Assembly (NCBI GenBank): GCA_009837205.1
Contig: VXTZ01000017.1
Span: 62,001 to 126,000 of the forward strand
Source: Candidatus Dadabacteria bacterium
GTDB taxonomy: Bacteria > Desulfobacterota_D > UBA1144 > Nemesobacterales > Nemesobacteraceae
DNA length: 64,000 nucleotides
Direction of reading: 5' to 3'
The notes beneath the pieces are model-generated. The model did not search any database. It worked only from the letters and a program-made list of their open reading frames with translations, and was not told the origin of the DNA. Position numbers and translations under genes: made by a program. Position 1 is the stretch's first letter. Every line of letters starts with the position of its first letter. Shown one piece after another: positions 7,632 through 63,970 of the stretch.

Positions 7632-8660
7632 ATGAAACTCAAGACGGCAATTCTGGGAGTTACGGGTTATGTCGGCCAGCAGCTTCTTTCCCTTCTGGCG
7701 CGCCATCCTAACATTGATCTGCGGGTGCTTACGTCTGAGAAGTTCTCGGGCAGGAGGGCGGATGAGGCGTTTCCGCATCTTTTGGGCTACTCGGATATTA
7801 TCCTAAGTCCCGTATCGAAAATTCGTGACTCAGAACCTCTCGATCTTCTGTTCTCCTGTCTTCCCGGGGGAACCTCTTCTGTTTTCGTGCGGAAGTTCCT
7901 TGAGAAGGGCGTAAGGGTGATTGATCTCAGCTCCGACTTAAGATTCTCTGACCCTGCCGACTACTCCCAGGCTCACGGCGTAGCGCCGCGCTTTCCCGAA
8001 CTTCTCTCTCAAGCGGTCTACGGACTTAGCGAACTTAACCGCGAGAGAATAAAAAACGCCCCGTTGATTGCTAACGCGGGTTGCTACTCTACCTGCGTTT
8101 CTCTCGCCATAGTGCCTTTTCTTAAAGAGTATGAAGTGGAAAACGACATTATAGTGGACATAAAGTCCTCTTTTTCGACTTCGGGACGAGCGCCGAAACC
8201 CGAGAGTCACTACACCGAGGTAAAGGAGGACGTATCCGCCCGTGGGGCTGGAGGGGATGACCAGAAACATGAGATTCTTCGCGTGCTCGACGATTTCTGC
8301 GGCGTGAAGAAGAAACTGCTTTTCTTTAATACACGTATTCCGGTTAAAAGGGGAATAATGGCCACTTCGTATCTCAGGCTCCGCTCGGAGACCTCCCCCG
8401 ATGAGGTAAGGGAACTTTACGCCGGGTTCTACAGAGATGATGCTTTCGTCCGGGTCTGCGACGAGCCGCCCGGAATGGCGTCTGTTTCCGGTTCCAACTA
8501 TATCTCTTTGGGTTTCTGCGAGCGGGAAGGGCACTTTGTCATCGTCTCGGTTCTTGACAATCTCATGAAGGGAGCCGCGGGCCAGGCCGTTCAGAACATG
8601 AATATAGCCTTTGGATTTTCCGAGGACACTGGACTCGGACAAGTTCCCCTTTTCCCGTGA
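7632..8660 (+). CDS. argC: N-acetyl-gamma-glutamyl-phosphate reductase
   Basis: ArgC reduces N-acetylglutamyl phosphate to the semialdehyde with NADPH in arginine synthesis. The 342-residue protein is full length. The NADPH-binding GVTGYVGQQLL lies at the N-terminus and the catalytic cysteine at about residue 151 in ANAGCYSTCV. The family pattern VIDLSSDLRF and YGLSELNRE are also clear. The ATG follows AGAAG with little spacing. No other arg gene is nearby. The stop codon is followed eight bases later by the ATG of an acyl-AMP ligase, so argC heads a short run with two apparently unrelated genes. Confidence 0.95.
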   Translation: MKLKTAILGVTGYVGQQLLSLLARHPNIDLRVLTSEKFSGRRADEAFPHLLGYSDIILSPVSKIRDSEPLDLLFSCLPGGTSSVFVRKFLEKGVRVIDLSSDLRFSDPADYSQAHGVAPRFPELLSQAVYGLSELNRERIKNAPLIANAGCYSTCVSLAIVPFLKEYEVENDIIVDIKSSFSTSGRAPKPESHYTEVKEDVSARGAGGDDQKHEILRVLDDFCGVKKKLLFFNTRIPVKRGIMATSYLRLRSETSPDEVRELYAGFYRDDAFVRVCDEPPGMASVSGSNYISLGFCEREGHFVIVSVLDNLMKGAAGQAVQNMNIAFGFSEDTGLGQVPLFP

Positions 8661-8667
8661 CGGGGCG

Positions 8668-10113
8668 ATGAGAAACTACTGCGAAATACTTTATTCAAAC
8701 CTGGAGCGAAATCCCCGGGGAGCGGCCGTCTGGTATCAAGGAGAAATCTACAGCTACGCGCGGCTCTGCGGCTTTGTTGACGGCTTTTCCTCGTTTCTTT
8801 CCAACCTGGGGGTGTCACGGGGGGATAAGGTATGCGTCTTCCTTCCCAATTCACTTTCCCTTGCCGTATCCGTTTTCTCGATAGCGAGACTTGGAGCTGC
8901 CTGCGTTCCAGTTGACAGCGCATGCGGAACCGAGGAGATGAGGCACTATCTTGAGTTCTTGCATCCGGCCCTGATCGTTACGGACGAATCTATTGCGCAT
9001 ACCGTGAACGCCGTTTCCGGAGGCATAACCACCGTTTGCGTGACCCGGGACAACTTTCTTGGCGACGCTCCCGCGGATCCGCCAGGAAACCGTCCTTCGG
9101 AGAAAGCCATCTACCTTTTTTCCACTGGCTCAACCGGAAAGCCCAAGTGTGTTGCGAGAAGCCACGCCAACATGATCGCCCTTGCCCGGAATCACACGGC
9201 TACCATAAACTGGGATAGCGGGGACAGGATTCTTTTTTCGATTCCGATATCGCATACCTATGGCTTTGGGAACTTCGTAAGCGCCGTAAGCGTCGGGGCG
9301 TGCTGCTATTTCCTTCCGAGGTTTACCAGAAAAGAGGTCCTCGGCGTGCTTGAAGAAGAACAGATAACGATCTTTCCCGCCGTTCCGTTCATGCTAGAGC
9401 CCCTCGCTCGAAGCGTGAGCCGTGGGGATTATGATTTCCCGCGGCTAAAGCACGTTATTTCCGCCGGGGCCCCCCTGCCCGAAGAAACCTTTTTTTCCTT
9501 CCACCGGGCTTTCGGCGTCTATCCCCGCCAGCTCTACGGTTCCTCCGAGACCGGGGTGATGGCAATTAATATCGCGGAGAACATGGAGGAGAAGCGTCTT
9601 TCAGTCGGAGTACCGGTTGAAAACGTCGTTATAAGGGTGGTCTCGGAAACCGGGGGCGAATTTCCGGTCGGGCAGATCGGCGAGATAATAATAAGGAGCC
9701 CTTCCATGACAGACGGCTACGTTGATTTTCCGGAAGAGACCGAGAGGGTTTTTGTCGACGGTTTTTACCACACCGGGGACCTCGGAATGTTCGACGGCGA
9801 CGGGTATCTTTTCATTCGCGGAAGAAAGAAGCTTTTCATCAATATCTCTGGGAACAAGGTTGACCCGTTCGAGGTTGAAAACCTGCTTATGACTCACGGG
9901 GGAATAACGGAAGCTGCGGTGATAGGAGCCCCTGGAGCCGGGGGCAGGGAAGAGGTAAAGGCCTTTATCGTCGCGGACGGACTCACGAGGCGGGAAGTTG
10001 TCAGCTTCTGCAGGGGGAAAATTTCCGACTACAAGATTCCCGCGAAGATGGAATTCGTAGACGCACTTCCGAGAAGCCCTGCGGGCAAGGTATTGAGGGA
10101 GAGACTTAAGTGA
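8668..10113 (+). CDS. acyl-AMP ligase (AMP-dependent synthetase, ANL superfamily)
   Basis: This 481-residue enzyme should activate a carboxylic acid as its acyl-adenylate and load it on a thiol. All core adenylation motifs are present: A3 YLFSTGSTGKPKCVARSH, A5 LYGSSETG, A7 YHTGDLGMFDGDGYL, A8 FIRGRKKLFINISGNKVDP and the catalytic-lysine A10 PRSPAGKVLRERLK. A TTG-initiated frame extends 57 bases further upstream into argC, but ATG 8668 with GGGG just before it is the better start. The stop overlaps the start of a discrete acyl-carrier protein, which is the probable acceptor. Substrate is not predictable; the pair resembles stand-alone ligase-carrier modules of secondary metabolism. Confidence 0.88.
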   Translation: MRNYCEILYSNLERNPRGAAVWYQGEIYSYARLCGFVDGFSSFLSNLGVSRGDKVCVFLPNSLSLAVSVFSIARLGAACVPVDSACGTEEMRHYLEFLHPALIVTDESIAHTVNAVSGGITTVCVTRDNFLGDAPADPPGNRPSEKAIYLFSTGSTGKPKCVARSHANMIALARNHTATINWDSGDRILFSIPISHTYGFGNFVSAVSVGACCYFLPRFTRKEVLGVLEEEQITIFPAVPFMLEPLARSVSRGDYDFPRLKHVISAGAPLPEETFFSFHRAFGVYPRQLYGSSETGVMAINIAENMEEKRLSVGVPVENVVIRVVSETGGEFPVGQIGEIIIRSPSMTDGYVDFPEETERVFVDGFYHTGDLGMFDGDGYLFIRGRKKLFINISGNKVDPFEVENLLMTHGGITEAAVIGAPGAGGREEVKAFIVADGLTRREVVSFCRGKISDYKIPAKMEFVDALPRSPAGKVLRERLK

Positions 10114-10391
10114 GCGCGCGGAAAGAAATTCTGGGAGAGAAAATAAGGCGGCTTGTCATCGGCAAGTTCAATCTTGACATTGAGCCTCAGGATATATCGG
10201 CCGAGCAGTCGCTGATTGAACTCGGAGTCGGCGTTGATTCTGTGTCAACCCTTGAGTTCATTATGGAGCTTGAAGAGGAACTAGGAGTTTCCATTGACGA
10301 ATCCGAAGTCAACCTCGGGGTTCTTGAGACTGTTGAGAGCCTTTCTGAATTTATAATATCAATCGGGTCTGTTGGTAAGGACAGAACTTAG
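10110..10391 (+). CDS. acyl carrier protein (phosphopantetheine-binding)
   Basis: The 93-residue, strongly acidic protein is a stand-alone carrier domain. The phosphopantetheine serine is about residue 44 in GVDSVSTLEF, so the common DSL motif is DSV here. It begins at GTG 10110 and overlaps the stop of the acyl-AMP ligase by four bases (GTGA type), so both should be made in fixed ratio. It is too divergent and in the wrong context to be the fatty-acid synthase AcpP. A BtrH-like protein, a family that handles carrier-bound acyl groups, is encoded at 56358, but no direct link is visible. Confidence 0.88.
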   Translation: MSARKEILGEKIRRLVIGKFNLDIEPQDISAEQSLIELGVGVDSVSTLEFIMELEEELGVSIDESEVNLGVLETVESLSEFIISIGSVGKDRT

Positions 10392-10569: not shown

Positions 10570-11820
10570 TTATCCTAGAGTCGGGCGTCTTTTAAATGAA
10601 ACTGCCAAAAACAGGACTGACATAACCAGAAACAGGTTGAGCAGGCTGCTTTGAGTCGTATTTCGGGTTCCCGAGATTGCGCACCCTCCGTCATCTGGAG
10701 TTTCCATCTCCGGCGTCTCCGTTTCCGGTGTCTCCATTTCTGGTGTCTCCGATCCTAAGTAAAGTCCAGAACCAAAGATGAAGATTTGACTGGGATTAAA
10801 GGGATTAGGAAAGGGTTCGACATAACCCAACTTGGGCGAGGAACCGCCGGCGCCACCGCCGGGGGCTTCGTCTCCTTCTATAGCCGGATCGTCCCAATCA
10901 TAATTGACAAAGCGCTCGTCTTCCTCTGTTTTCTTTGACGCTTCTATGAGTCTTTCAATAATGTCAACCAGGGTCTGGTTCTGGCCTCGCAGCAGATTTG
11001 TCTGCTCAATATTTCTGTTTCCCCCGTTAAAGATCACGTTGCCTTCGTCATCCATGATCCAGATGTAGGTCGATACGTGTCTCCAAGGTCCATCCTCGGC
11101 CCTGAAGAGCTTCCGTGTTTTTACTAGATCGATTTCGGGATCCTCCAGAGCTCTGCCGAAGAAATCAATCGCCGCTTTCACGAACATTTTCAGTTCTTCC
11201 CTGGTATCGACCTCCTCGGCTGTTATGGAGGGGGTTATTGTCTCGGCGCCGGGCAGTTGTTCATAGGGAATTTTGTCAACCTCGGGCTGCAGGTCGAAAC
11301 CGCCGATCAGGATATAACGCTGCATGGTGAAGGGATCGGTAAACGGGATCGCGTAGCTTCTCTTGTCTCCGTCGTTGTAGTAGTCGACAAACCCTCCAGT
11401 CAGGAGTGGCGCGTTTAGAAAGCCCTGTCCAACCATGTTCCCCCGGTCGTCTTCAAGCATGGACCAGTCCTCATCTTCAAGCTCCCTGTTGTCCATGTGG
11501 GCTTGTACGCCGCCGCCGCCCGTAAGAAGAACAAGGTATGTGGAACCGTCATTCCAGTCCCCAATCTTCCTGAACTCGTCAACGAGTTCGGTTGCTTCTG
11601 CAAAGGTCGTGACCCGCGCAAGATGAGCTGCCGCGTGTCCTACAAAAGTTGGTAAATTTGACCTGTCCGCGGTTACATCCGAGGCGGTTGAAGTTAGAGG
11701 TATAGGTGAAGGAGGGGAATGAGGATCATCTTGATGTGCAAAGGCCGGGAACATGTAGGAAAAAACGCCGAGCAGCCCCAGCACGGAACAGAAAAAAACC
11801 ATTAGCCTTAAACTTTTCAT
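10570..11820 (-). CDS. exported Cache-like domain protein with Gly-Gly-Cys C-terminal sorting tail
   Basis: From ATG 11820, preceded by AAAAAGGAG at ideal spacing, the protein has about 416 residues. It starts with a signal peptide (MKSLRLMVFFCSVLGLLGV then cleavage near AFA-HQ). The body contains two segments like Cache small-molecule sensing domains: ATELVDEFRKIGDWNDGS with YLVLLTGGGGVQAHMDNRE, and a second half with VSTYIWIMDDEGNVIFNGG. A proline/threonine/glutamate spacer of four ETPEx repeats follows. The tail is GGCAISGT, then a hydrophobic helix, then FKRR. This tripartite Cys-helix-Arg tail is typical of MYXO-, JDVT- and Synerg-CTERM type sorting signals. No signalling output domain is present. 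A candidate processing protease lies at 14005-14610. Ligand is unknown. Confidence 0.72.
   Translation of the reverse strand: MKSLRLMVFFCSVLGLLGVFSYMFPAFAHQDDPHSPPSPIPLTSTASDVTADRSNLPTFVGHAAAHLARVTTFAEATELVDEFRKIGDWNDGSTYLVLLTGGGGVQAHMDNRELEDEDWSMLEDDRGNMVGQGFLNAPLLTGGFVDYYNDGDKRSYAIPFTDPFTMQRYILIGGFDLQPEVDKIPYEQLPGAETITPSITAEEVDTREELKMFVKAAIDFFGRALEDPEIDLVKTRKLFRAEDGPWRHVSTYIWIMDDEGNVIFNGGNRNIEQTNLLRGQNQTLVDIIERLIEASKKTEEDERFVNYDWDDPAIEGDEAPGGGAGGSSPKLGYVEPFPNPFNPSQIFIFGSGLYLGSETPEMETPETETPEMETPDDGGCAISGTRNTTQSSLLNLFLVMSVLFLAVSFKRRPTLG
10690..10749 (-). repeat. four tandem 15-base repeats encoding ETPEx
   Basis: The 60 bases encode ETPEM-ETPET-ETPEM-ETPDD on the minus strand, a perfect four-unit repeat of period 15. 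It forms the extended spacer between the Cache-like body and the membrane-anchoring tail, as often found in surface-anchored proteins. Copy number may vary between strains. Confidence 0.85.
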
Positions 11821-11879
11821 AATATTCTCCTTTTTGCCTGAGTTAGGTGAATTTTGAATTCGCCCAAGCATTTTTCCGC

Positions 11880-11908
11880 ATTATAAATACTGGATGATCC
11901 TGTTTCTA
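11880..11908 (-). promoter_or_regulatory. promoter of the Cache-like gene
   Basis: On the minus strand TATAAT (11885-11880) is a perfect -10, with TAGAAA (11908-11903, 4/6 to -35 consensus) 17 bases upstream. Transcription would begin near 11873, about 53 bases before the ATG at 11820, leaving room for the strong Shine-Dalgarno. Confidence 0.55.
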
Positions 11909-12193
11909 ATAGGAGTTTCTTTAAAAGCCGGGTCAGAGTCAAGATTTTTTCTGAATCTCCCTGCTGCTTCTTTGTACCCGAACCCGCAGTAGTCTATTGG
12001 GGCTGGTTGTGATTTTCGCTCTGAAATTGACCGGTATGGCGGAAGCTGACTGTAGGGGCCGATCAATTATTGAAAAAATCGACACGGATTTACGTCATGT
12101 AGGCATATGCACTGATGTACGTCTCCTCATGAATCAAGTTGAACAGTAAACAAGCGGGCACCGAACCTCCGCAAACTCATCATGCTGGCGTCT
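11909..12193. other. intergenic region without recognised gene
   Basis: Together with the promoter and leader described above, about 370 bases separate nadE from the Cache-like start. A 61-codon minus-strand frame (11881-12066) is open but matches nothing I know, has no Shine-Dalgarno and overlaps the promoter. No RNA gene or repeat was recognised. Confidence 0.4.
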
Positions 12194-13933
12194 TTATTTT
12201 TTGTAGAGGTTGGTTATCGGGAAGCGACGGTCCTTTCCGAAGGCAAGGGACGTTATTTTTATCCCTGGAGCGCTCTGCCTTCTTTTGTATTCGTTGGTGT
12301 TAACCATTCTGATTACTCTCCGCACGACGCTTCTTTTCTCCCCGAGCTTTACTATGTCGTCGACCCCGAGGCCGTCTTCCACATAGGCTTTCAGTATCCT
12401 GTCGAGCGTGTCGTATTCGGGAAGCGAGTCGATGTCTTTCTGGTCGGGGCAAAGTTCGGCTGAAGGGGGTTTTTCAATTACTGATTTTGGTATTATCTGC
12501 TTTCCCCGAAGACGGTTGTAATAATGGGAAAGTTCGTAAACCATGGTTTTGGGCACGTCCTTTATCACCGCGAATCCCCCTGACATATCGCCGTAGAGGG
12601 TAGAATAGCCGACCGCGAGTTCACTTTTGTTCGATGTGGCAAGCACGAGCCACCCGAACTTGTTTGAAAGCGCCATGAGGATATTTCCTCTTATCCTCGC
12701 CTGGATGTTCTCTTCCGTTACGTCTGACTCCATTCCGGAGAAAAACTCGGCGAACATTTCCTCGTAGCACCTGAAGACGTCTTCTATGGGAATGCTTAAA
12801 AGTTCGATTCCGAGATTGTGCGCGAGCTTTTTCGCATCAGTGACGCTTCCCTTGGAACTGTACATTGAAGGCATGGAAACTCCGACGACTTTTGAGGGTC
12901 CGACGGCTTCTGTGGCAATGACGGTTGTAAGCGAAGAATCTATCCCGCCGCTTAACCCAATCACCACCTTTTCAAAGCCGTTTTTTCTTATGTAATCCCC
13001 GGTGCCGAGGACAAGTGCCGAGAAGGCGCATTTTAAAGGATCTCCTGAAGGATCAGTCTGTTTCCCCGGGATTTTCACTTTCCGCTTTGTTTTCGTAGTC
13101 TTAAGCGTGAATGTTTCGAGCTGGTTTTCCTCGAAGGAGAGCTCGTATCTTGTCTTTCTTATGGTCGGAGTGTTAAGCCTTGATTTGTAAACCCTTTCGG
13201 TGTTAACGTCGCAGACCAGCATGTCTTCTTCGAAATGTCGTGCAGTGGCGACGATGTTGCCTTTTTCATCTATCAACATGCTGTTTCCGTCAAACACAAG
13301 CTCGTCCTGCCCGCCGACCATGTTGCAGTAGGCTATTATTGTGTTGTAGTCAACCGCCCTTGTGGCGAGCATCCTCTCCCTCGCCAGAGGCTTTCCCATG
13401 TAGTAGGGTGAAGCCGAGAGGTTGAATATGATCTGGGCGTTTCCCAGCAGAACTTGGCTTCTTATAGGTTCTCCGGGATACCATATGTCCTCGCAGATCG
13501 TAACCCCGAAAGTCATTTTTCCCATGGAGTAAACGGGAAACCGTCTTTCTGACTGGAAATAGCGGTTCTCGTCGAACACTCCGTAGTTGGGAAGGCGGAG
13601 TTTGTGGTATACGTCGATTAGTTCTCCTCTCTGGATTACGGCTGCCGAGTTGAATATGTCGTCCTTTTTATCGACAAAGCCCACTATGACGACCATGTTG
13701 TCCGGACAGTGCTTCTTTATTTCGTCAAGCGCCCGGATGTTGTCGTCGATGAACTCGGGTTTAAGAAGAAGATCCTCGGGGGGATAGCCGGTCACGGAAA
13801 GCTCGGGGAAACACAAAATGTCTATATCGAGACCTCGCGCCGCCTCGATCACTTTGGTTATTTTCTTAGTGTTTCCGGTTATATCCCCCACGCTCGGGTT
13901 GATCTGGGAGAGCCCGGTCCGCAACTGTTTCAT
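12194..13933 (-). CDS. nadE: glutamine-dependent NAD+ synthetase
   Basis: NadE converts deamido-NAD to NAD with ATP, taking ammonia from glutamine. The 579-residue protein has the two-domain eukaryote-like layout. An N-terminal nitrilase-type glutaminase carries the Glu in FPELSVTGYPPEDLL and the nucleophile Cys in FGVTICEDIWYPG. The C-terminal NAD-synthase domain carries the PP-loop GLSGGIDSSLT and the later LATSNKSELAVGYSTLYGD. The ATG is preceded by no Shine-Dalgarno; instead a TATAGT -10 box lies six bases upstream, so the message is predicted to be leaderless. Confidence 0.95.
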   Translation of the reverse strand: MKQLRTGLSQINPSVGDITGNTKKITKVIEAARGLDIDILCFPELSVTGYPPEDLLLKPEFIDDNIRALDEIKKHCPDNMVVIVGFVDKKDDIFNSAAVIQRGELIDVYHKLRLPNYGVFDENRYFQSERRFPVYSMGKMTFGVTICEDIWYPGEPIRSQVLLGNAQIIFNLSASPYYMGKPLARERMLATRAVDYNTIIAYCNMVGGQDELVFDGNSMLIDEKGNIVATARHFEEDMLVCDVNTERVYKSRLNTPTIRKTRYELSFEENQLETFTLKTTKTKRKVKIPGKQTDPSGDPLKCAFSALVLGTGDYIRKNGFEKVVIGLSGGIDSSLTTVIATEAVGPSKVVGVSMPSMYSSKGSVTDAKKLAHNLGIELLSIPIEDVFRCYEEMFAEFFSGMESDVTEENIQARIRGNILMALSNKFGWLVLATSNKSELAVGYSTLYGDMSGGFAVIKDVPKTMVYELSHYYNRLRGKQIIPKSVIEKPPSAELCPDQKDIDSLPEYDTLDRILKAYVEDGLGVDDIVKLGEKRSVVRRVIRMVNTNEYKRRQSAPGIKITSLAFGKDRRFPITNLYKK

Positions 13934-13939
13934 CTGAAA

Positions 13940-13968
13940 ACTATACTTGTAACCGCAGGATATTTCGA
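13940..13968 (-). promoter_or_regulatory. nadE promoter, leaderless arrangement
   Basis: On the minus strand TCGAAA (13968-13963) and TATAGT (13945-13940) are separated by 17 bases. The -10 ends only six bases before the nadE ATG (13933), so transcription should begin at or next to the start codon. There is no Shine-Dalgarno. Confidence 0.55.
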
Positions 13969-14004
13969 GAATTCTACGGCTTGCGGGCTTAAGGGAGACT
14001 CTGA

Positions 14005-14610
14005 CTAAGCAAGTCTAAAAGACAGGTAAACGATATTTGCGGCGAAGTGAAAGAAGACGCTTGACCAGATGTTTCCGGTTCTCATGTATAGGTACCCCAT
14101 GACAAGCGAAGGGAAAAAGGTAAGGGCGTTCTGCGCGCAGTAGGCCCCACCGGAGAATACGCAGATCACGAGAAGATGCGCCAAGGCGAAAAGCACACTT
14201 GCCGCAATAATCGCGCCCCATCCGTTGCCGAGAGTTCTCTGAAGGTATCCCCTGAAGAAAAACTCCTCGGGAAACGCGATAACTACAAGGTGCGTGAGCA
14301 CGAAAAGCGCCGTCGGTTCAACGAATCTAACCGTTTTTCCCAAATAGGCTGAAAAAAGGTATAGGCAGATCAGGTAGGAGAAAAGCACCGCAATAGAAAT
14401 TACCGCTCCCCGAACCAGTCCCCGCAGATCAAACCTCAAAACATCCACCGCGCCGCGGCCAAGCAGAAACGGAACCCAGAGCATGAACCCCGCCGAGAGT
14501 AAAAGGGCGTACTCACGGCCAATCGCGGCTCTTGAGATTATGATCGCCACTATCACCACCCCGTAGGCGGCAAACGGTATCGCAAGGTTTTTCGGAAGAA
14601 GTCGTTTCAC
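14005..14610 (-). CDS. CPBP family intramembrane glutamic endopeptidase
   Basis: The 201-residue integral membrane protein has about six helices and all CPBP (Abi/CAAX) catalytic motifs: the Glu-Glu-x3-Arg motif at residues 115-120 in FPEEFFFRGYL, His145 in FALAHLLV, and the final His188 in FFHFAANIVY. Start is GTG 14610. This family includes Rce1-type prenyl proteases, bacteriocin-immunity proteins and the MrtX/MrtJ/MrtS proteases that process Cys-containing C-terminal sorting tails. Because a protein with exactly such a tail is encoded at 10570-11820 on the same strand, a sorting role is a reasonable inference. It lies between nadE and birA without overlap. Confidence 0.88.
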   Translation of the reverse strand: MKRLLPKNLAIPFAAYGVVIVAIIISRAAIGREYALLLSAGFMLWVPFLLGRGAVDVLRFDLRGLVRGAVISIAVLFSYLICLYLFSAYLGKTVRFVEPTALFVLTHLVVIAFPEEFFFRGYLQRTLGNGWGAIIAASVLFALAHLLVICVFSGGAYCAQNALTFFPSLVMGYLYMRTGNIWSSVFFHFAANIVYLSFRLA

Positions 14611-57518: not shown

Positions 57519-57545
57519 ATGTGGGATTAATTTAAGGAATTGACT

Positions 57546-58493
57546 ATGGTTTTGTTTATTTTAAGGAAGTATGTTTGGGTCGTAAACGTCTTGCTGATAG
57601 TCGCCATTGCGTACTCGGTTTCGGCCACGGTCAACAACGGCCTGCGCGACAAGATAGAGTCCGACAAGGGAGGCCTGACAGGCGAACACCTTTACAAGGA
57701 GAAGTACGGACAGGTTAAGATTCCCTATCGTTCAAGAGAGTACTACGACTCTATACTGAGAACAAACCTGTTTGGAACGGGCGGGTATGCTGGACAGATA
57801 GAAACGGGTGGTTTCTCGGAAGTTTTTGAGGGGGAAATTACCCCGAAAACTTCCCTCAAGCTTGAACTGCTTGGAACTTTCATACTCAAAAGCCGCACTA
57901 ATTCTGCGGCCAACAAGAGCATCGCCGTGATAAAGAATATGGAAAATAGCAAAATAAAGGGTTATTCTGAAGGGCAGTTGGTTGATCTTGTAACATCCGA
58001 AAAAGTGGAGGTAGTGAAAATAGACGACTGCGAAGTGACTATACGAAGAGCGGAAGGTCCCGAATTGATTACCTGCGGAAACGAGCTTGAATCCGTTTTT
58101 GCAAAAAGCCCCGCGAGTTCTTCAGTAAGGAACAGACCTTCTGTTAAGTCAAAAAAGTCGTCGGCTTCAGGGGTCAGCAAGGTCAGCGAGGGCTTGTACC
58201 AGATAGAGAGAGTGATGTTTGAAGAGCTGCTCGCTGAACCCAGCAGTTTAATAACCGAGGCTAAGATTGTGCCGCGCGATGACGGCATCAAGATCTTCGG
58301 AGTGAAAAGCCGGAGCGTGTTTTATAAAATGGGTCTTAGAAACGGGGATATAGTTCACCAGATAAATGAAGTTGCTTTAAACGATGTGCAGAGCGCTCTT
58401 TCACTTTTTACCGACTTGAGGGGCCAGAGTGAGTTTACCGTTGATTTCACGAGACAAGGTAAAAGAAAGAGTAACCGGTACACGGTTTACTAG
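57546..58493 (+). CDS. gspC: type II secretion system inner-membrane protein GspC, with PDZ domain
   Basis: GspC links the inner-membrane platform to the outer-membrane secretin and helps choose substrates. The roughly 315-residue protein has one N-terminal membrane helix (YVWVVNVLLIVAIAYSVSA), a periplasmic homology region (LKLELLGTFILKS, then IAVIKNM), a Ser/Lys-rich linker, and a C-terminal PDZ domain (GIKIFGVKSRSVFYKMGLR, NGDIVHQINEVAL). ATG 57546 with AAGGAA upstream is chosen over TTG 57540. It begins the gspC-D-E-F operon. Confidence 0.92.
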   Translation: MVLFILRKYVWVVNVLLIVAIAYSVSATVNNGLRDKIESDKGGLTGEHLYKEKYGQVKIPYRSREYYDSILRTNLFGTGGYAGQIETGGFSEVFEGEITPKTSLKLELLGTFILKSRTNSAANKSIAVIKNMENSKIKGYSEGQLVDLVTSEKVEVVKIDDCEVTIRRAEGPELITCGNELESVFAKSPASSSVRNRPSVKSKKSSASGVSKVSEGLYQIERVMFEELLAEPSSLITEAKIVPRDDGIKIFGVKSRSVFYKMGLRNGDIVHQINEVALNDVQSALSLFTDLRGQSEFTVDFTRQGKRKSNRYTVY

Positions 58494-58536
58494 GCCTAAT
58501 ACGAAAAAATTCAGTTTCTTAAGGTTAAAACAGATT

Positions 58537-61032
58537 ATGAAATACTTTCTGAATAAAAATCTTTTCCCAATTCTGTCAGCGGTTCTCGTCTTTTCCGCTT
58601 CCGTTCTCTGTCCCCAGTTGGCTCCTGCAGAGAAATCCGAGCCGCTTCCGGACCTTACGAGGGCTAAGGTTGTTGTCGCCCCGGGCACAAGGCTTAAAAA
58701 AGCGAACGGGGAGGATTCACCCGCGGAACCCACTGATATTGCCAAGGAAGCCACGGAGTTGCTGGCCGAGGAGGCCGCAAAGGATCCGGATAAGCAAGAC
58801 TTAAGGTCTCTCGGAAAAGATGCGTTGAAAGTTTCTGGCAACGAGACTTTGGAAGGCTTGGTCGAGGATCCTGGTCTACCGCTCGATTTAGCGGAGGAAG
58901 AAATTGTAGCCGAAGTTGAGAGGGCTCCTGGGCCGGAGACGAAGAAGCCTGAGGAAACAGTTGCGGTCTCGGGCGATGAAACTCTCGGTGAAGAGGGTGA
59001 GGAAATTCCCGAGGGCGAGGGGATGGTCAACCTTCGCTCCAACATGACGCTTAATGAGATGGTAAAGACCATAAGCGAGATCACCTCCGAGGTTTATCTC
59101 CTGAGTGACAAGATCAGGGACAAGAATGTGACGATCATAACTCCCGAGGGCGGTTTCGAGAAAGAGAATGCGTTTAGAATTTTTGAAATACTGCTCGATA
59201 TGAACGGCTATTCGGTCATAAGCGCGGAGGGAGTTAACAAGGTTGTCCCCAAAAAGGGGATAAAGTCAGAGAGCATACCGTTAAGACTGGATTTCGACCC
59301 TGCGGAGTCTTCCCAGAAATACGTGATGAAGCTGATAAAGCTTAAGAGCGTAAAAGCCAAAGGAATTTCCAACGTCCTTCGAGCTCTGGTTAGCAAGGAT
59401 GGGTTTATGAAGGCCCACGAACCGTCGAATACCCTGGTTGTGGTTGATAATGAACAGAACGTGAACAAGATAGCCGAAGTGATTGCGAATATTGATTACG
59501 AGAAGAAAATAGAGTTCATCAAAGTGCATAACACAAACTCGGCCAACGTTATTTTTAAGCTGCTTGAGATCTTCAATCCTAAAAGCGCCAAGGCCAAGCC
59601 GTCAAAAAGCAAGGATGGCGGTTTGATATCTGGAAGTTCTGAGCTATTAGGGTTTAAAGTGATAAACGACGAGAGGACAAATTCCATAATAGTGATTGCC
59701 GACCCGAGGGATCTTCCCCTGATAAAGGAGACGATCGCTGTTTTGGACATCGAGAGCGAGCACGCGGAACAGGACGTTTACGTTATAGCGGTTAAAAACG
59801 CCGACGCTGAGCAGATAATCGAAGTTCTGGGAAATCTGTTCGCGGAGGGGAAAGGGGGCGTAGTGTCTTCAGTTTCCTACCGTGATCAGACGCGGCAACC
59901 CGGCAGAACCGGCCAGCCTTCAAGCCGTCTCGGAGAGGGGAAAGTGGGCGGCAGCGGAAATGTCGGTGGTTTAGGTTCCCAGGGCGGGAACATCCAGAGG
60001 GGAGGGAGCGAGCAGACCGGCGCTTCAGTCATAGTGTCTTCGGGCGATGGGCTTAAGATAACTTCGGACCCGGCGACAAATTCCATCATAGTGATCGGTT
60101 CTCTCACGCAGTACAGAATGGTCAAGCAGATAGTGGATAAGCTTGACGTAAGGAGAAGGCAGGTGTTCGTGGAAGCCGCCATACTCGAGGTGGGCCTTGA
60201 TAACCTTAATGCGCTGGGAACCAATTTCGGTCTCGGCGTTACAATCGAGGGCGACAACCTAGGTTTTATCGGACAGCAACTGCCGGGCATCCCAAGTCTT
60301 CTCGGAGTTGCGGCTGATCCCACAATTGCAACTGCTTCCATAGGCAGTCTCTCGGGGCTCTTTCTCGGAGTGGTGGGAGAGGAAGTTGACCCCGACGGTT
60401 CGGGTCCGCTTCCGTCTCTTCCTTCGTTCTCCGCGGTGTTTCAGGCGCTGAGTTCCGTGACCGACGTCAACGTTCTTTCAACCCCGAGTATTATTACAAC
60501 CGACAACGAACCGGCCGAGATAGTAGTGGCTGACATAATACCGTTTCCGATGGGTAGCACTGTGGGAACAAGCGGCGTGACAGTTCAGACGATCGAGAGA
60601 TTGCCGGTGGGAATAAGGCTCAGCATCACCCCTCAGATAAGCGAAGGAGAATACCTTAACCTTGACATAGTGACCGAGGTTTCCTCTACCCGAGAGGCGC
60701 CCGCGGGACTTAACACCGCCCAGTTCGGCATTGCGACTACAACAAGAAGTGCCGATTCGTCGGTTATAGTCAAAAATGGGCAGACCCTCGTTATAGGTGG
60801 GCTGGTTCAGGACAGAGAAGAGGTGCTTCACAACAAAACACCTCTGCTCGGAGATATTCCGCTGATTGGAAACCTGTTCAGGTTCAAGCGCAATCAGAAC
60901 AGGAAGCTTAACCTGATGATACTTCTTACCCCACGGATAGTTGAGACGGAAAGCGATATGAAGCAGTTGCTTATGGATTACCAGAGAAGAAAGACCTTGC
61001 TTCATAGAAGGGATCTGAATACGCTTGAGTAA
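58537..61032 (+). CDS. gspD: type II secretion system secretin GspD
   Basis: GspD forms the outer-membrane channel. From ATG 58537 the protein has about 831 residues, longer than usual. It has a signal peptide (ILSAVLVFSASVLCPQLAP), an acidic low-complexity region (about 35-160), N0 (MVNLRSNMTLNEMVKTISE), N1, N2 and N3 domains with a Gly/Ser-rich insert (about 450-495, GKVGGSGNVGGLGSQGG), and the C-terminal secretin domain (VEAAILEV, DVNVLSTPSIITTDNEPAEI, RSADSSVIVKNGQTLVIGG). The acidic extension is unusual. The start lies 43 bases after the gspC stop. Confidence 0.94.
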   Translation: MKYFLNKNLFPILSAVLVFSASVLCPQLAPAEKSEPLPDLTRAKVVVAPGTRLKKANGEDSPAEPTDIAKEATELLAEEAAKDPDKQDLRSLGKDALKVSGNETLEGLVEDPGLPLDLAEEEIVAEVERAPGPETKKPEETVAVSGDETLGEEGEEIPEGEGMVNLRSNMTLNEMVKTISEITSEVYLLSDKIRDKNVTIITPEGGFEKENAFRIFEILLDMNGYSVISAEGVNKVVPKKGIKSESIPLRLDFDPAESSQKYVMKLIKLKSVKAKGISNVLRALVSKDGFMKAHEPSNTLVVVDNEQNVNKIAEVIANIDYEKKIEFIKVHNTNSANVIFKLLEIFNPKSAKAKPSKSKDGGLISGSSELLGFKVINDERTNSIIVIADPRDLPLIKETIAVLDIESEHAEQDVYVIAVKNADAEQIIEVLGNLFAEGKGGVVSSVSYRDQTRQPGRTGQPSSRLGEGKVGGSGNVGGLGSQGGNIQRGGSEQTGASVIVSSGDGLKITSDPATNSIIVIGSLTQYRMVKQIVDKLDVRRRQVFVEAAILEVGLDNLNALGTNFGLGVTIEGDNLGFIGQQLPGIPSLLGVAADPTIATASIGSLSGLFLGVVGEEVDPDGSGPLPSLPSFSAVFQALSSVTDVNVLSTPSIITTDNEPAEIVVADIIPFPMGSTVGTSGVTVQTIERLPVGIRLSITPQISEGEYLNLDIVTEVSSTREAPAGLNTAQFGIATTTRSADSSVIVKNGQTLVIGGLVQDREEVLHNKTPLLGDIPLIGNLFRFKRNQNRKLNLMILLTPRIVETESDMKQLLMDYQRRKTLLHRRDLNTLE

Positions 61033-61047: not shown

Positions 61048-62730
61048 ATGAAGGCTCTTGACGAAATAATAGGCAGGCGTTACCCCGAGGTTATGGGGAG
61101 GATTGAAGAGCTTAAAGGGAAGAACGGTCGGAACACAGAAGACATACTACTCAAAACTGACGTACTCAAAGACTCCCCGGCTCTAGATGTTCTTTCCGAG
61201 TTTTACGGAGTCGAAAAAGTCGAATCGATTCCCGAAGACGATATAGATTATGAACTGATAAAGCAGTTTCCGATCAGCTTCGCGAAGAGATTCAGAATAC
61301 TCCCAATAAGCAAAGACAACGGAACGCTCAAAGTCGTATTCGCCCCGCCTCAGGAACTCTATGCCCTTGACGAAGTCCGCTCCCGCTTTAACTGCTCGCT
61401 TGAAACTTACATTGCCCTTGAGCGCGTGCTGACCGACAGCATTAACAGGGTTTACGAGCAGGGCAAAGATGTTGTGTCAGAGGATATAAACGAAGGTTCG
61501 GGACTCTCCGACATGGAGTTTACCGAGCCCCAGGATCTGATTGAGGCTGAAGATGAAGCCCCGATCATAAAATTCATAAACACGCTTCTTTTTCAGGCGG
61601 TAAGGGAGCACGCAAGCGATATTCACATAGAGTGTTTCGAAAAAGAAGTGCTGGTACGGTTCAGAAAGGACGGCATTCTGCACGACGTGACGAAAGTTCC
61701 GAAGACAGTGCAGTCTTCGGTGATCTCGCGCGTGAAGATCATGTCTGAACTTGATATAGCCGAGAGAAGAAAGCCTCAGGACGGAAGCATAAGGCTGAAG
61801 ATCGGGGGAAGGGATATCGATGTAAGGGTTTCGACGGTTCCCACCTCATGGGGAGAGAGCGTGGTAATGAGGCTGCTTTACAGGTCTTCGGTGCTGATGA
61901 GCTTCGAGCAGCTGGGTCTTGAAGGAGAAAAACTCGAGACGGTGGAATCCCTTATCAAATGTCCTCACGGGATCATTCTCGTTACGGGACCCACGGGAAG
62001 CGGAAAGACAACAAGCCTCTATGCTGCCCTGCAGAGAATCAATCTTCCCGACAAGAAAATAATCACTATAGAAGACCCGGTTGAATACCAGATACAGGGA
62101 ATTAACCAGATCCAAGTCAACACCAAGGTCGGTCTTACGTTCGCAAACGGACTTCGCTCAATACTCAGGCAGGACCCCGACGTTATACTAGTCGGAGAGA
62201 TAAGGGACAGGGAAACTGCCGATATTTCCATGAACGCTTCACTCACTGGGCATCTCGTGTTTTCCACGCTGCATACCAATGACTCGGTAAGCGCCGTGAC
62301 CAGACTTGCCGATATGGGAGTGGAGTCCTTTCTTATAGCTTCTACCCTCTCGGCAGTTATAGCTCAGAGACTTGTCAGGATTCTTTGCACGCAGTGCAGA
62401 GAACAGTACGTGCCGGTTGATGAGGAGCTCGGTCGTATAGGACTTGCTCGCGAGGCCTGTCCAGAAGGAAAAATATACAGAGCCAAGGGATGCCAAGAGT
62501 GCATGGAGACAGGATTTTCGGGAAGAATAGCGATTTTTGAGATACTGCTTATCGATGATGAACTCAAAAACACTATTCTTACACACCCGGATTCTTCAAC
62601 TCTTAAGGAGAAGGCCCTGAGAAACGGACTCATTACCCTTAGAATGGACGGTGCCGACAAAGTCGCAAAAGGCATAACGTCAATTGACGAAGTGCTCAGG
62701 GTTACGGAAGAGGAGCTGGCGGAGAGCTAG
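61048..62730 (+). CDS. gspE: type II secretion system ATPase GspE
   Basis: GspE drives pseudopilus assembly. The 560-residue cytoplasmic ATPase has an N-terminal GspE-N domain, then HASDIHIECFEKEVLVRFRK, Walker [13 protein letters not shown] (about 313-324), the Asp box DPDVILVGEIRDRETAD, and a tetracysteine zinc motif (C447, C450, C482, C485 in CTQC and CQEC). It starts 15 bases after the gspD stop, with only a weak AAGGAAG signal. Its end is 31 bases before gspF. Confidence 0.95.
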   Translation: MKALDEIIGRRYPEVMGRIEELKGKNGRNTEDILLKTDVLKDSPALDVLSEFYGVEKVESIPEDDIDYELIKQFPISFAKRFRILPISKDNGTLKVVFAPPQELYALDEVRSRFNCSLETYIALERVLTDSINRVYEQGKDVVSEDINEGSGLSDMEFTEPQDLIEAEDEAPIIKFINTLLFQAVREHASDIHIECFEKEVLVRFRKDGILHDVTKVPKTVQSSVISRVKIMSELDIAERRKPQDGSIRLKIGGRDIDVRVSTVPTSWGESVVMRLLYRSSVLMSFEQLGLEGEKLETVESLIKCPHGIILVTGPTGSGKTTSLYAALQRINLPDKKIITIEDPVEYQIQGINQIQVNTKVGLTFANGLRSILRQDPDVILVGEIRDRETADISMNASLTGHLVFSTLHTNDSVSAVTRLADMGVESFLIASTLSAVIAQRLVRILCTQCREQYVPVDEELGRIGLAREACPEGKIYRAKGCQECMETGFSGRIAIFEILLIDDELKNTILTHPDSSTLKEKALRNGLITLRMDGADKVAKGITSIDEVLRVTEEELAES

Positions 62731-62761
62731 ACCGCAGCTATCTTTAACATCGGTATTTCAA

Positions 62762-63970
62762 ATGCCTGTTTATAACTATAAAGCCATCAACGACAAGGGC
62801 GAATCGGTAAAGGGAGTTGTCAGCGCGGAATCGGTCAAGATCGCAAGCGACAGGCTCAGAAAAGGCGGCATCTATCTTTCCTCTATAAAGGAGGCGAGCG
62901 GGTCTCGCCGCTCGTCGGTGAGCCTTCCGTGGAACAGGGTGAGCATCTCGGAACTTGCCGTTATGACAAGACAGTTCTCAACCCTGATTTCATCAGGTCT
63001 TCCTCTTGAGACCTCACTTGTGGCTCTTTACGAGCAGACCGATGACCAGAAGCTCAAGGGAATTCTCTCTCAGGTGCGAAGCCGGGTGAGTGAAGGCAGT
63101 TCTCTTCACGCCGCACTTGAGGAGCACGAAGGAGCTTTCTCTGATCTTTACGTGAGCATGGTTCGTGCCGGCGAGGCTAGCGGCACTCTTGATGTCGTGC
63201 TCGACCGTCTTGCGGATTTCCTTGAAAAGCAGCTTGAACTGACTTCGAAGATCAGGGGTGCCATGATATATCCGGCAATAATGTTTGTCGTCGGACTCGG
63301 GGTACTGGTTTTCATGATGACTTTCGTAATTCCCAAAGTCGCCGATATATTCGAGGCCAGTAACAAGGCTTTGCCGTTTGTTACCGTAATGCTTATAGGT
63401 GCAAGTGATTTTCTCAGGGAAAATTTTATCCTTCTGCTGGTTTTCTTGGCCGTCGTATTGTTTTTTGGACACAGGTACGTAAAAACTCCTTCCGGAAGGA
63501 AGGTCTACGACAGGTTTTCCCTGAGGATTCCAGTGTTCGGGAAAATGTCTTCAAAAGTGATGATTTCCCGTTTCACAAGAACGCTTGCCACGCTACTTTC
63601 AAGCGGCATTCCTCTTCTTGAATCCATCAGGGTGAGCGAATCGGTTATGGGAAACAGTCTTTATGTTGACAATATAAGGGATGTTCGGGTCAAGGTTGCA
63701 GAGGGAGCGGCATTCGGAGGCTGCCTTGGACAGACCGGGATTTTTCCTCCCTTAATGGTGAGAATGGTGTCTGTGGGCGAGGAAGCGGGTAAAATGGAAG
63801 TCATGCTGTCGAAGGTGGCCGATATGTATGATACCGAGGTCGACGGCATGCTTGCCACGCTGACTTCCCTTCTTGAGCCGGTAATGATACTGATTATGGG
63901 CGTCGTGATGGGTTTTATAGTTTTTGCTATACTTTTACCTGTGTTGAATCTAACTTCTGTAATAAGCTGA
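62762..63970 (+). CDS. gspF: type II secretion system inner-membrane protein GspF
   Basis: GspF is the multi-helix platform protein that contacts GspE. From ATG 62762 the protein has 402 residues: N-terminal MPVYNYKAINDKGESVKGVV, then two repeated T2SF domains, the first with SELAVMTRQFSTLISSGLPL and the second with MISRFTRTLATLLSSGIPL. Three helices are spread through the protein and end in LEPVMILIMGVVMGFIVFA. An in-frame extension upstream lies inside gspE and is not used. Confidence 0.95.
   Translation: MPVYNYKAINDKGESVKGVVSAESVKIASDRLRKGGIYLSSIKEASGSRRSSVSLPWNRVSISELAVMTRQFSTLISSGLPLETSLVALYEQTDDQKLKGILSQVRSRVSEGSSLHAALEEHEGAFSDLYVSMVRAGEASGTLDVVLDRLADFLEKQLELTSKIRGAMIYPAIMFVVGLGVLVFMMTFVIPKVADIFEASNKALPFVTVMLIGASDFLRENFILLLVFLAVVLFFGHRYVKTPSGRKVYDRFSLRIPVFGKMSSKVMISRFTRTLATLLSSGIPLLESIRVSESVMGNSLYVDNIRDVRVKVAEGAAFGGCLGQTGIFPPLMVRMVSVGEEAGKMEVMLSKVADMYDTEVDGMLATLTSLLEPVMILIMGVVMGFIVFAILLPVLNLTSVIS

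Follow-up and report, generated by a model that had tools for sequence, protein, structure and literature searches.

Does the Gly-Gly-Cys tail at the end of an exported protein, together with a CPBP glutamic intramembrane protease encoded close by, belong to a dedicated protein-sorting system? We asked this of a 64,000-nucleotide stretch of DNA (the window) taken from a MAG that is 1.69 Mb long and 97% complete. The nearest named homologues of the CPBP protein come from Candidatus Dadabacteria (81%–95% identical), and judging by isolate names we take several of these Dadabacteria MAG series to be sponge-derived.

An exported Cache protein with a cysteine-containing tail

The tailed protein is encoded on the minus strand at 10570–11820, in an ORF that is open from 11871 and has its probable start, MKSLRL, at 11820. 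Its signal peptide, MKSLRLMVFFCSVLGLLGVFSYMFPAFA (11737–11820), was recognized by eye from the n-, h-, and c-regions. Pfam detects a Cache domain (dCache_2, E 1e-14; sCache_2, E 6e-10), with the best stretch of PF08269 dCache_2 at 10804–11073. A low-complexity spacer with repeated ETPE, ETPEMETPETETPEMETP (10696–10749), leads into the sorting tail, DDGGCAISGTRNTTQSSLLNLFLVMSVLFLAVSFKRRPTLG (10573–10695; DDGGCAISGT...KRRPTLG), which consists of a GGC motif, a transmembrane (TM) helix, and a basic end. The invariant Cys codon of the tail lies at 10681–10683, where C-A-I-S fits the pattern C-[AST]-[ILV]-[AGS], and the helix, LLNLFLVMSVLFLAVSF (10594–10644), is followed by KRR. The original prediction of an exported Cache-like protein with an ETPE spacer and a GGCAISGT-helix-KRR end is therefore borne out by the sequence and by Pfam. 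Next to the Cache gene but on the other strand (8611–10391, +), adjoining genes encode an acyl-CoA ligase-like protein and an acyl carrier protein.

The tail recurs across the genome as a module

Tails were located in the genome by sequence and profile searches, which give a total of at least 13. With the single tail as query, we found 12 other Cys tails, 10 of them at E ≤ 0.01 (best 1.5e-10); the remaining two scored E 0.07–0.15 and were confirmed by profile. A profile built from the 13 tails recovers all of them in the genome (E 3e-22 to 3e-12), a result that is partly circular because the same tails built the profile. An RND transporter (L014), also matched in the tail search, was discarded as unrelated. 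Uniqueness of the tail in its genome had been named beforehand as an argument against a sorting signal, and with 12 further copies this does not hold. Judged on sequence, such recurrence is far beyond chance.

Genome-wide, the 13 tails sit in 12 ORFs. In their alignment (consensus [GD]GGC-A-I-A ... LLNLFL ... RR), the Cys is kept in 13 of 13 and is the sole invariant residue. When the carriers were compared with their tails removed, nine of the 12 proved to be homologous Cache proteins, and the other three were unrelated to the Cache proteins and to each other; one of the three is an exported Spondin_N-domain protein (L015:1480–2445, −). We regard the tail as a module because its carriers include these three nonhomologous proteins. 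In other families of the order, the same tail is found at the end of yet more unrelated proteins, among them DUF4331 and DUF7151 proteins. A signal peptide is seen in most intact carriers, so that an invariant Cys, a TM helix, a basic end, and occurrence on many exported proteins, the general marks of Cys-containing C-terminal sorting signals, are all present here. One Cache carrier (L003; C13:3909–4019) lies in an ORF without a clean signal peptide; its copy in genome G009 has one, and a frameshift or assembly error is possible.

No NCBIfam model matches the Dadabacterial tail above its cut-off. MYXO-CTERM (TIGR03901, 20 bits) matched three of the 13 tails weakly (best E 0.027) and JDVT-CTERM (NF033191, 27 bits) two of the 13 (best E 0.0055), in both cases below the cut-off and without a match to the protein of the window, and Synerg-CTERM (TIGR04564, 22.5 bits) matched zero of the Dadabacterial tails. 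A search with these three models had been proposed as a check.

The protease is related to the myxosortase group

The protease (14005–14610, −; 201 aa) carries the PF02517 domain at E 1e-19. It lies upstream of the Cache gene on the same strand, across a gap of 2134 bp, as the predicted distance of about 2.2 kb had it. Its catalytic residues are invariant in 47 homologues: the EExxxR motif (E115, E116, and R120; 14251–14268), His145 (14176–14178), and the HxxxN motif (H188 and N192; 14035–14049). An FFPS segment (14107–14118), of which F165 and P167 are likewise invariant in the 47, is common to proteins of the myxosortase (Mrt) group and missing in those generic CPBP paralogues of relatives that were inspected. 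The genome encodes only this one PF02517 protein.

All of the top seven NCBIfam matches of the protease are Mrt models, from MrtP at 78 bits down to MrtZ at 39.5 bits, with Mrt_core at 73.9, MrtS at 62.9, MrtC at 59.3, MrtX at 47.9, and MrtJ at 41.8 bits; the best non-Mrt CPBP family, ABC_perm_CPBP, reaches 38.5 bits. Every curated Mrt cut-off lies above its score (100 bits for Mrt_core, NF040914), and on these sequence scores we file the protease as related to the Mrt families and not as a curated member. A tree was built from Dadabacterial, Nitrospirota, and Mrt_core proteins and three outgroups, with no MrtJ, MrtS, or Rce1 among them. Support of 100/100 separates the first three sets from two generic CPBP paralogues; the branch of the third outgroup is very long and its placement uncertain. 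The scores side with the expectation of an Mrt-type enzyme over another CPBP branch, and the tree agrees as far as the two generic paralogues go.

The AlphaFold model of the protease is a confident (pLDDT 93.4) all-helical membrane protein. A sequence search of the PDB gave no match, and a Foldseek search of the PDB with the model gave nothing below E 0.6, so neither search confirms the fold.

Second or third PF02517 proteins occur in family f3 and in genome G014 (L198–L216), and those read are generic. We considered the second CPBP proteins of f3 as alternative enzymes and rejected them: the readable ones are generic, with HxxxD and without the FFPS motif.

Tail and protease co-occur across the Dadabacteria class

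The protease is present in 33 of 58 genomes of the class. At E ≤ 1e-3, 29 of these 33 hold tails (32 when the threshold is E ≤ 0.1), as do seven of the 25 protease-negative genomes, with G038 a marginal case. Fisher's exact test, which ignores kinship, gives p = 5e-6 over the 58 genomes and p = 0.09 when family f8 is left out.

The eight apparent counter-examples, positive for the tail and negative for the protease, were traced to their assemblies. Across the order, the conserved neighbor of the protease is nadE, and in eight of eight of these genomes the site of the protease is unassembled: a contig ends inside nadE in three (G033, G041, and G043), a contig begins 0.3 kb before nadE in one (G037), and a nadE match is absent altogether in four (G008, G011, G038, and G040). 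The place for the protease therefore falls in an assembly gap, which explains all eight. Genomes G019 (a single contig) and G023 have an intact nadE preceded by a different gene and hold neither the protease nor tails at E ≤ 1e-3; G017, with part of nadE, also has neither. None of the 14 genomes of family f8 (∼1 Mb each) encodes the protease or yields a tail at E ≤ 1e-3. In f6 and f8, the absence of both tail and protease goes together with that of GspD and, in the two genomes tested, of a rhomboid, so part of the pattern could reflect a wider loss of envelope functions.

The same neighborhood removes one argument from the original prediction. The gene between the Cache gene and the protease is nadE (NAD synthase; 12194–13933, −), which the original prediction leaves unmentioned and which lies outside the system. 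The order protease then nadE is found both in the window and in family f3, and no plausible tail gene was seen near the protease (within ∼10 kb) in 20 relatives outside the genus. Since the protease sits with nadE across the order, its closeness to the Cache gene in the window is incidental, and we rejected this closeness as evidence.

Nitrospirota pair the same kinds of tail and protease

In Nitrospirota, the association is found at the level of adjacent genes. Among 30 homologues of the protease, 19 have, no more than 220 bp away, a gene whose product ends in GGGGCS[IV]G-helix-RRK (L119–L146), and several of the other 11 sit on short contigs or close to the end of a contig. Only one or two tails per genome were found in 12 of these Nitrospirota genomes, and the substrates that we inspected are subtilisin-like proteases that carry an fn3 domain. 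Profiles of the Dadabacterial and Nitrospirota tails align at E 5e-14. The Nitrospirota proteases tested score 49–71 bits with Mrt_core (cut-off 100), their best model being MrtS (67–79 bits). Synerg-CTERM (TIGR04564) matches one Nitrospirota tail only, at 14.1 bits (cut-off 22.5), and no NCBIfam model passes for the three tails and three proteases tested. The dedicated anchoring system and new signal variant of the original prediction thus gain from the gene pairs and from the co-occurrence in the class, although its proximity argument falls away.

A type II secretion system is the probable export route

The far end of the window encodes, on the plus strand, GspC (57540–58493; NF041515, 151 bits, cut-off 150), the GspD secretin (58429–61032; TIGR02517, 449.6 bits, cut-off 351), the GspE ATPase (61048–62730; TIGR02533, 681 bits, cut-off 630), and GspF (62684–63970; above its cut-off) of a type II secretion system (T2SS). 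By eye, the operon runs past the window end with pseudopilin-like genes (L233). GspD is the only secretin of the genome, and large secretins of GspD size were found in 10 of 10 tail-positive genomes tested. Among tail-less genomes, G019 and G023 encode PilQ as their only secretin and no GspD, and the four f8 genomes tested have no secretin. MYXO-CTERM proteins depend on a T2SS (PMC11980579), and the T2SS is the probable export route of the tailed proteins.

A proposed sorting mechanism and its alternatives

We consider it very likely that the tails belong to a myxosortase-like system that sorts proteins by their C termini, with many substrates for a single Mrt-like CPBP protease and export by the T2SS. 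The observations at its base are the shared modular tail, the Mrt-group protease with its motifs intact, their co-occurrence, the Nitrospirota pairs, and the T2SS. Cleavage, the cleavage site, lipidation of the Cys, and surface display are proposed by analogy with MrtX/MYXO-CTERM. Exported proteins, Cache-domain proteins above all, would cross the inner membrane by Sec and be held there by the tail helix, its K/R end on the cytoplasmic side and the G-G-C motif facing the periplasm. The Cys would probably be lipidated first, before the single Mrt-like CPBP protease acts; the protease would then cleave at or just after the invariant Cys, removing the helix, and the T2SS would move the lipid-anchored protein to the cell surface. 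Cleavage of a C-terminal Cys tail has been demonstrated for MrtX, the closest proven case, which is of a different subfamily from the Dadabacterial protease (PMC11980579).

Sorting might proceed as proposed with the Cys left unlipidated, the CPBP protease releasing the proteins and the T2SS exporting them in soluble form. A lipidating enzyme has been identified neither here nor in the MrtX work (PMC11980579), which agrees with this view, but proven CPBP/Rce1 substrates are lipidated at the corresponding Cys (PMC11980579), and the Cys of the tails is invariant, within C-[AST]-[ILV]-[AGS] in 22 of 24 distinct contexts across the Dadabacterial and Nitrospirota tails. In sequence, this context resembles a CaaX box. 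Rce1 proteases cut CaaX boxes after the Cys. The likeness is a lead and not a test, because the motif is internal here and stands before a helix. On balance, soluble release seems unlikely to us.

The tail might instead be a mere membrane anchor of duplicated Cache proteins, and the CPBP protease an unrelated enzyme with another role. The predominance of homologous Cache proteins among the carriers in the source genome would fit this, as would the position of the protease outside the genus, beside nadE and not beside tail genes. Duplication does not account for the three unrelated carriers or for the further unrelated proteins that bear the tail in other families, and a plain anchor sits poorly with tail alignments in which the Cys and its C-[AST]-[ILV] context are kept and the helix varies. 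With the Nitrospirota pairing the same kinds of tail and protease, we find this explanation quite improbable.

It is very improbable indeed that the tail is cut by another enzyme, either a rhomboid, as in GlyGly-CTERM/rhombosortase, or an exosortase: the Gly-Gly before the tail helix and the presence of a rhomboid in nine tail-positive genomes speak for it, but the sole rhomboid of the source genome looks generic (19 bits with rhombosortase TIGR03902, cut-off 84) and was rejected as the processing enzyme, exosortase (PF09721) has no match in that genome (G000), and the Nitrospirota tail genes adjoin a CPBP homologue. The phyletic pattern alone does not exclude the rhomboid, which is also absent from two tail-less genomes tested; what excludes it is the pairing of genes in Nitrospirota together with the scores against the models. 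To our knowledge, the GlyGly-CTERM signal has no invariant Cys, and that of the present tails is foreign to it. Two f3 genomes have weak exosortase-like matches of 188–190 aa (G016:C3:559872–560297 and G025:C23:8534–8956), and a second sorting system may exist in them.

Fused tandem ORFs

One carrier (L011:301–2874, +; genome C19) is a stop-free ORF of 858 aa with the order signal peptide-Cache-tail-signal peptide-Cache-tail. Its internal tail passes directly into another signal peptide, which is followed by a further Cache protein that has a tail of its own, and the basic end of the first tail doubles as the n-region of the signal peptide that follows it. There are nine such tandem ORFs (835–901 aa; L011 and L246–L253) in six genomes of the genus (G000, G002, G009, G010, G011, and G013), which, judged by their junction sequences, appear to fall into three or more orthologue groups; the second tail of L253 was missed by a simple motif and found by the profile. 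Across the junction, dN was below dS in seven of seven pairs compared (ratios 0.13 to 0.44). We put at about even the chances that several tailed members are true bacterial polyproteins, in which the Mrt protease and signal peptidase would excise a two-helix hairpin and turn one chain into two separately anchored surface proteins. Processing of the junction would require both sortase and signal peptidase to act there, and these fused tail-signal-peptide junctions provide a natural way to test for actual cutting of the tail.

Relation to known systems and significance

The proposed system is most readily compared with MYXO-CTERM/MrtX of Myxococcota (TIGR03901, NF040593; PMC11980579), with which it shares an invariant Cys, a helix, and a basic end in the tail, the EExxxR and HxxxN motifs of a CPBP protease, the use of one enzyme for many substrates, and a T2SS in the genome. 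It departs from it in the signal, GG-C-[AST]-[ILV]-[AGS] as against a GCGC-like MYXO-CTERM, and in the enzyme, at 47.9 bits against an MrtX cut-off of 180. JDVT-CTERM/MrtJ (NF033191, NF033192) likewise joins a Cys tail to a CPBP protease, and its described two-gene arrangement (PMC11980579) is also that of the Nitrospirota version; the Dadabacterial protease scores 41.8 bits against the MrtJ cut-off of 75, and Dadabacteria have one enzyme for many targets. Synerg-CTERM/MrtS (TIGR04564, NF040589) again has a Cys tail with a CPBP protease, but the Dadabacterial protease scores 62.9 bits against the MrtS cut-off of 130. GlyGly-CTERM/rhombosortase (TIGR03902) is alike in its many-to-one C-terminal signal, with Gly before the helix, and is T2SS-linked (PMC3237569; PMC13393428); its enzyme, however, is a serine rhomboid, and the Dadabacterial genome has no rhomboid of the rhombosortase class.

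The Dadabacterial tail and protease are therefore probably a new, unnamed variant of myxosortase, as measured against the NCBIfam models of June 2026 and open literature outside the 2024 in silico myxosortase survey; neither tail nor protease is covered by an NCBIfam model at cut-off. The only experimentally proven myxosortase that we found in the literature is from Myxococcota, and a second lineage, set apart from it and using another signal that is CaaX-like, would offer a way to learn how these proteases read their substrates. Set beside the one-to-one pairs of Nitrospirota, the one-to-many arrangement of Dadabacteria may reveal how a sorting system that serves a whole genome arises from a dedicated pair. 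For this uncultured, sponge-associated group, the tail would supply a rule for predicting surface proteins, mostly stand-alone Cache (ligand-binding) proteins.
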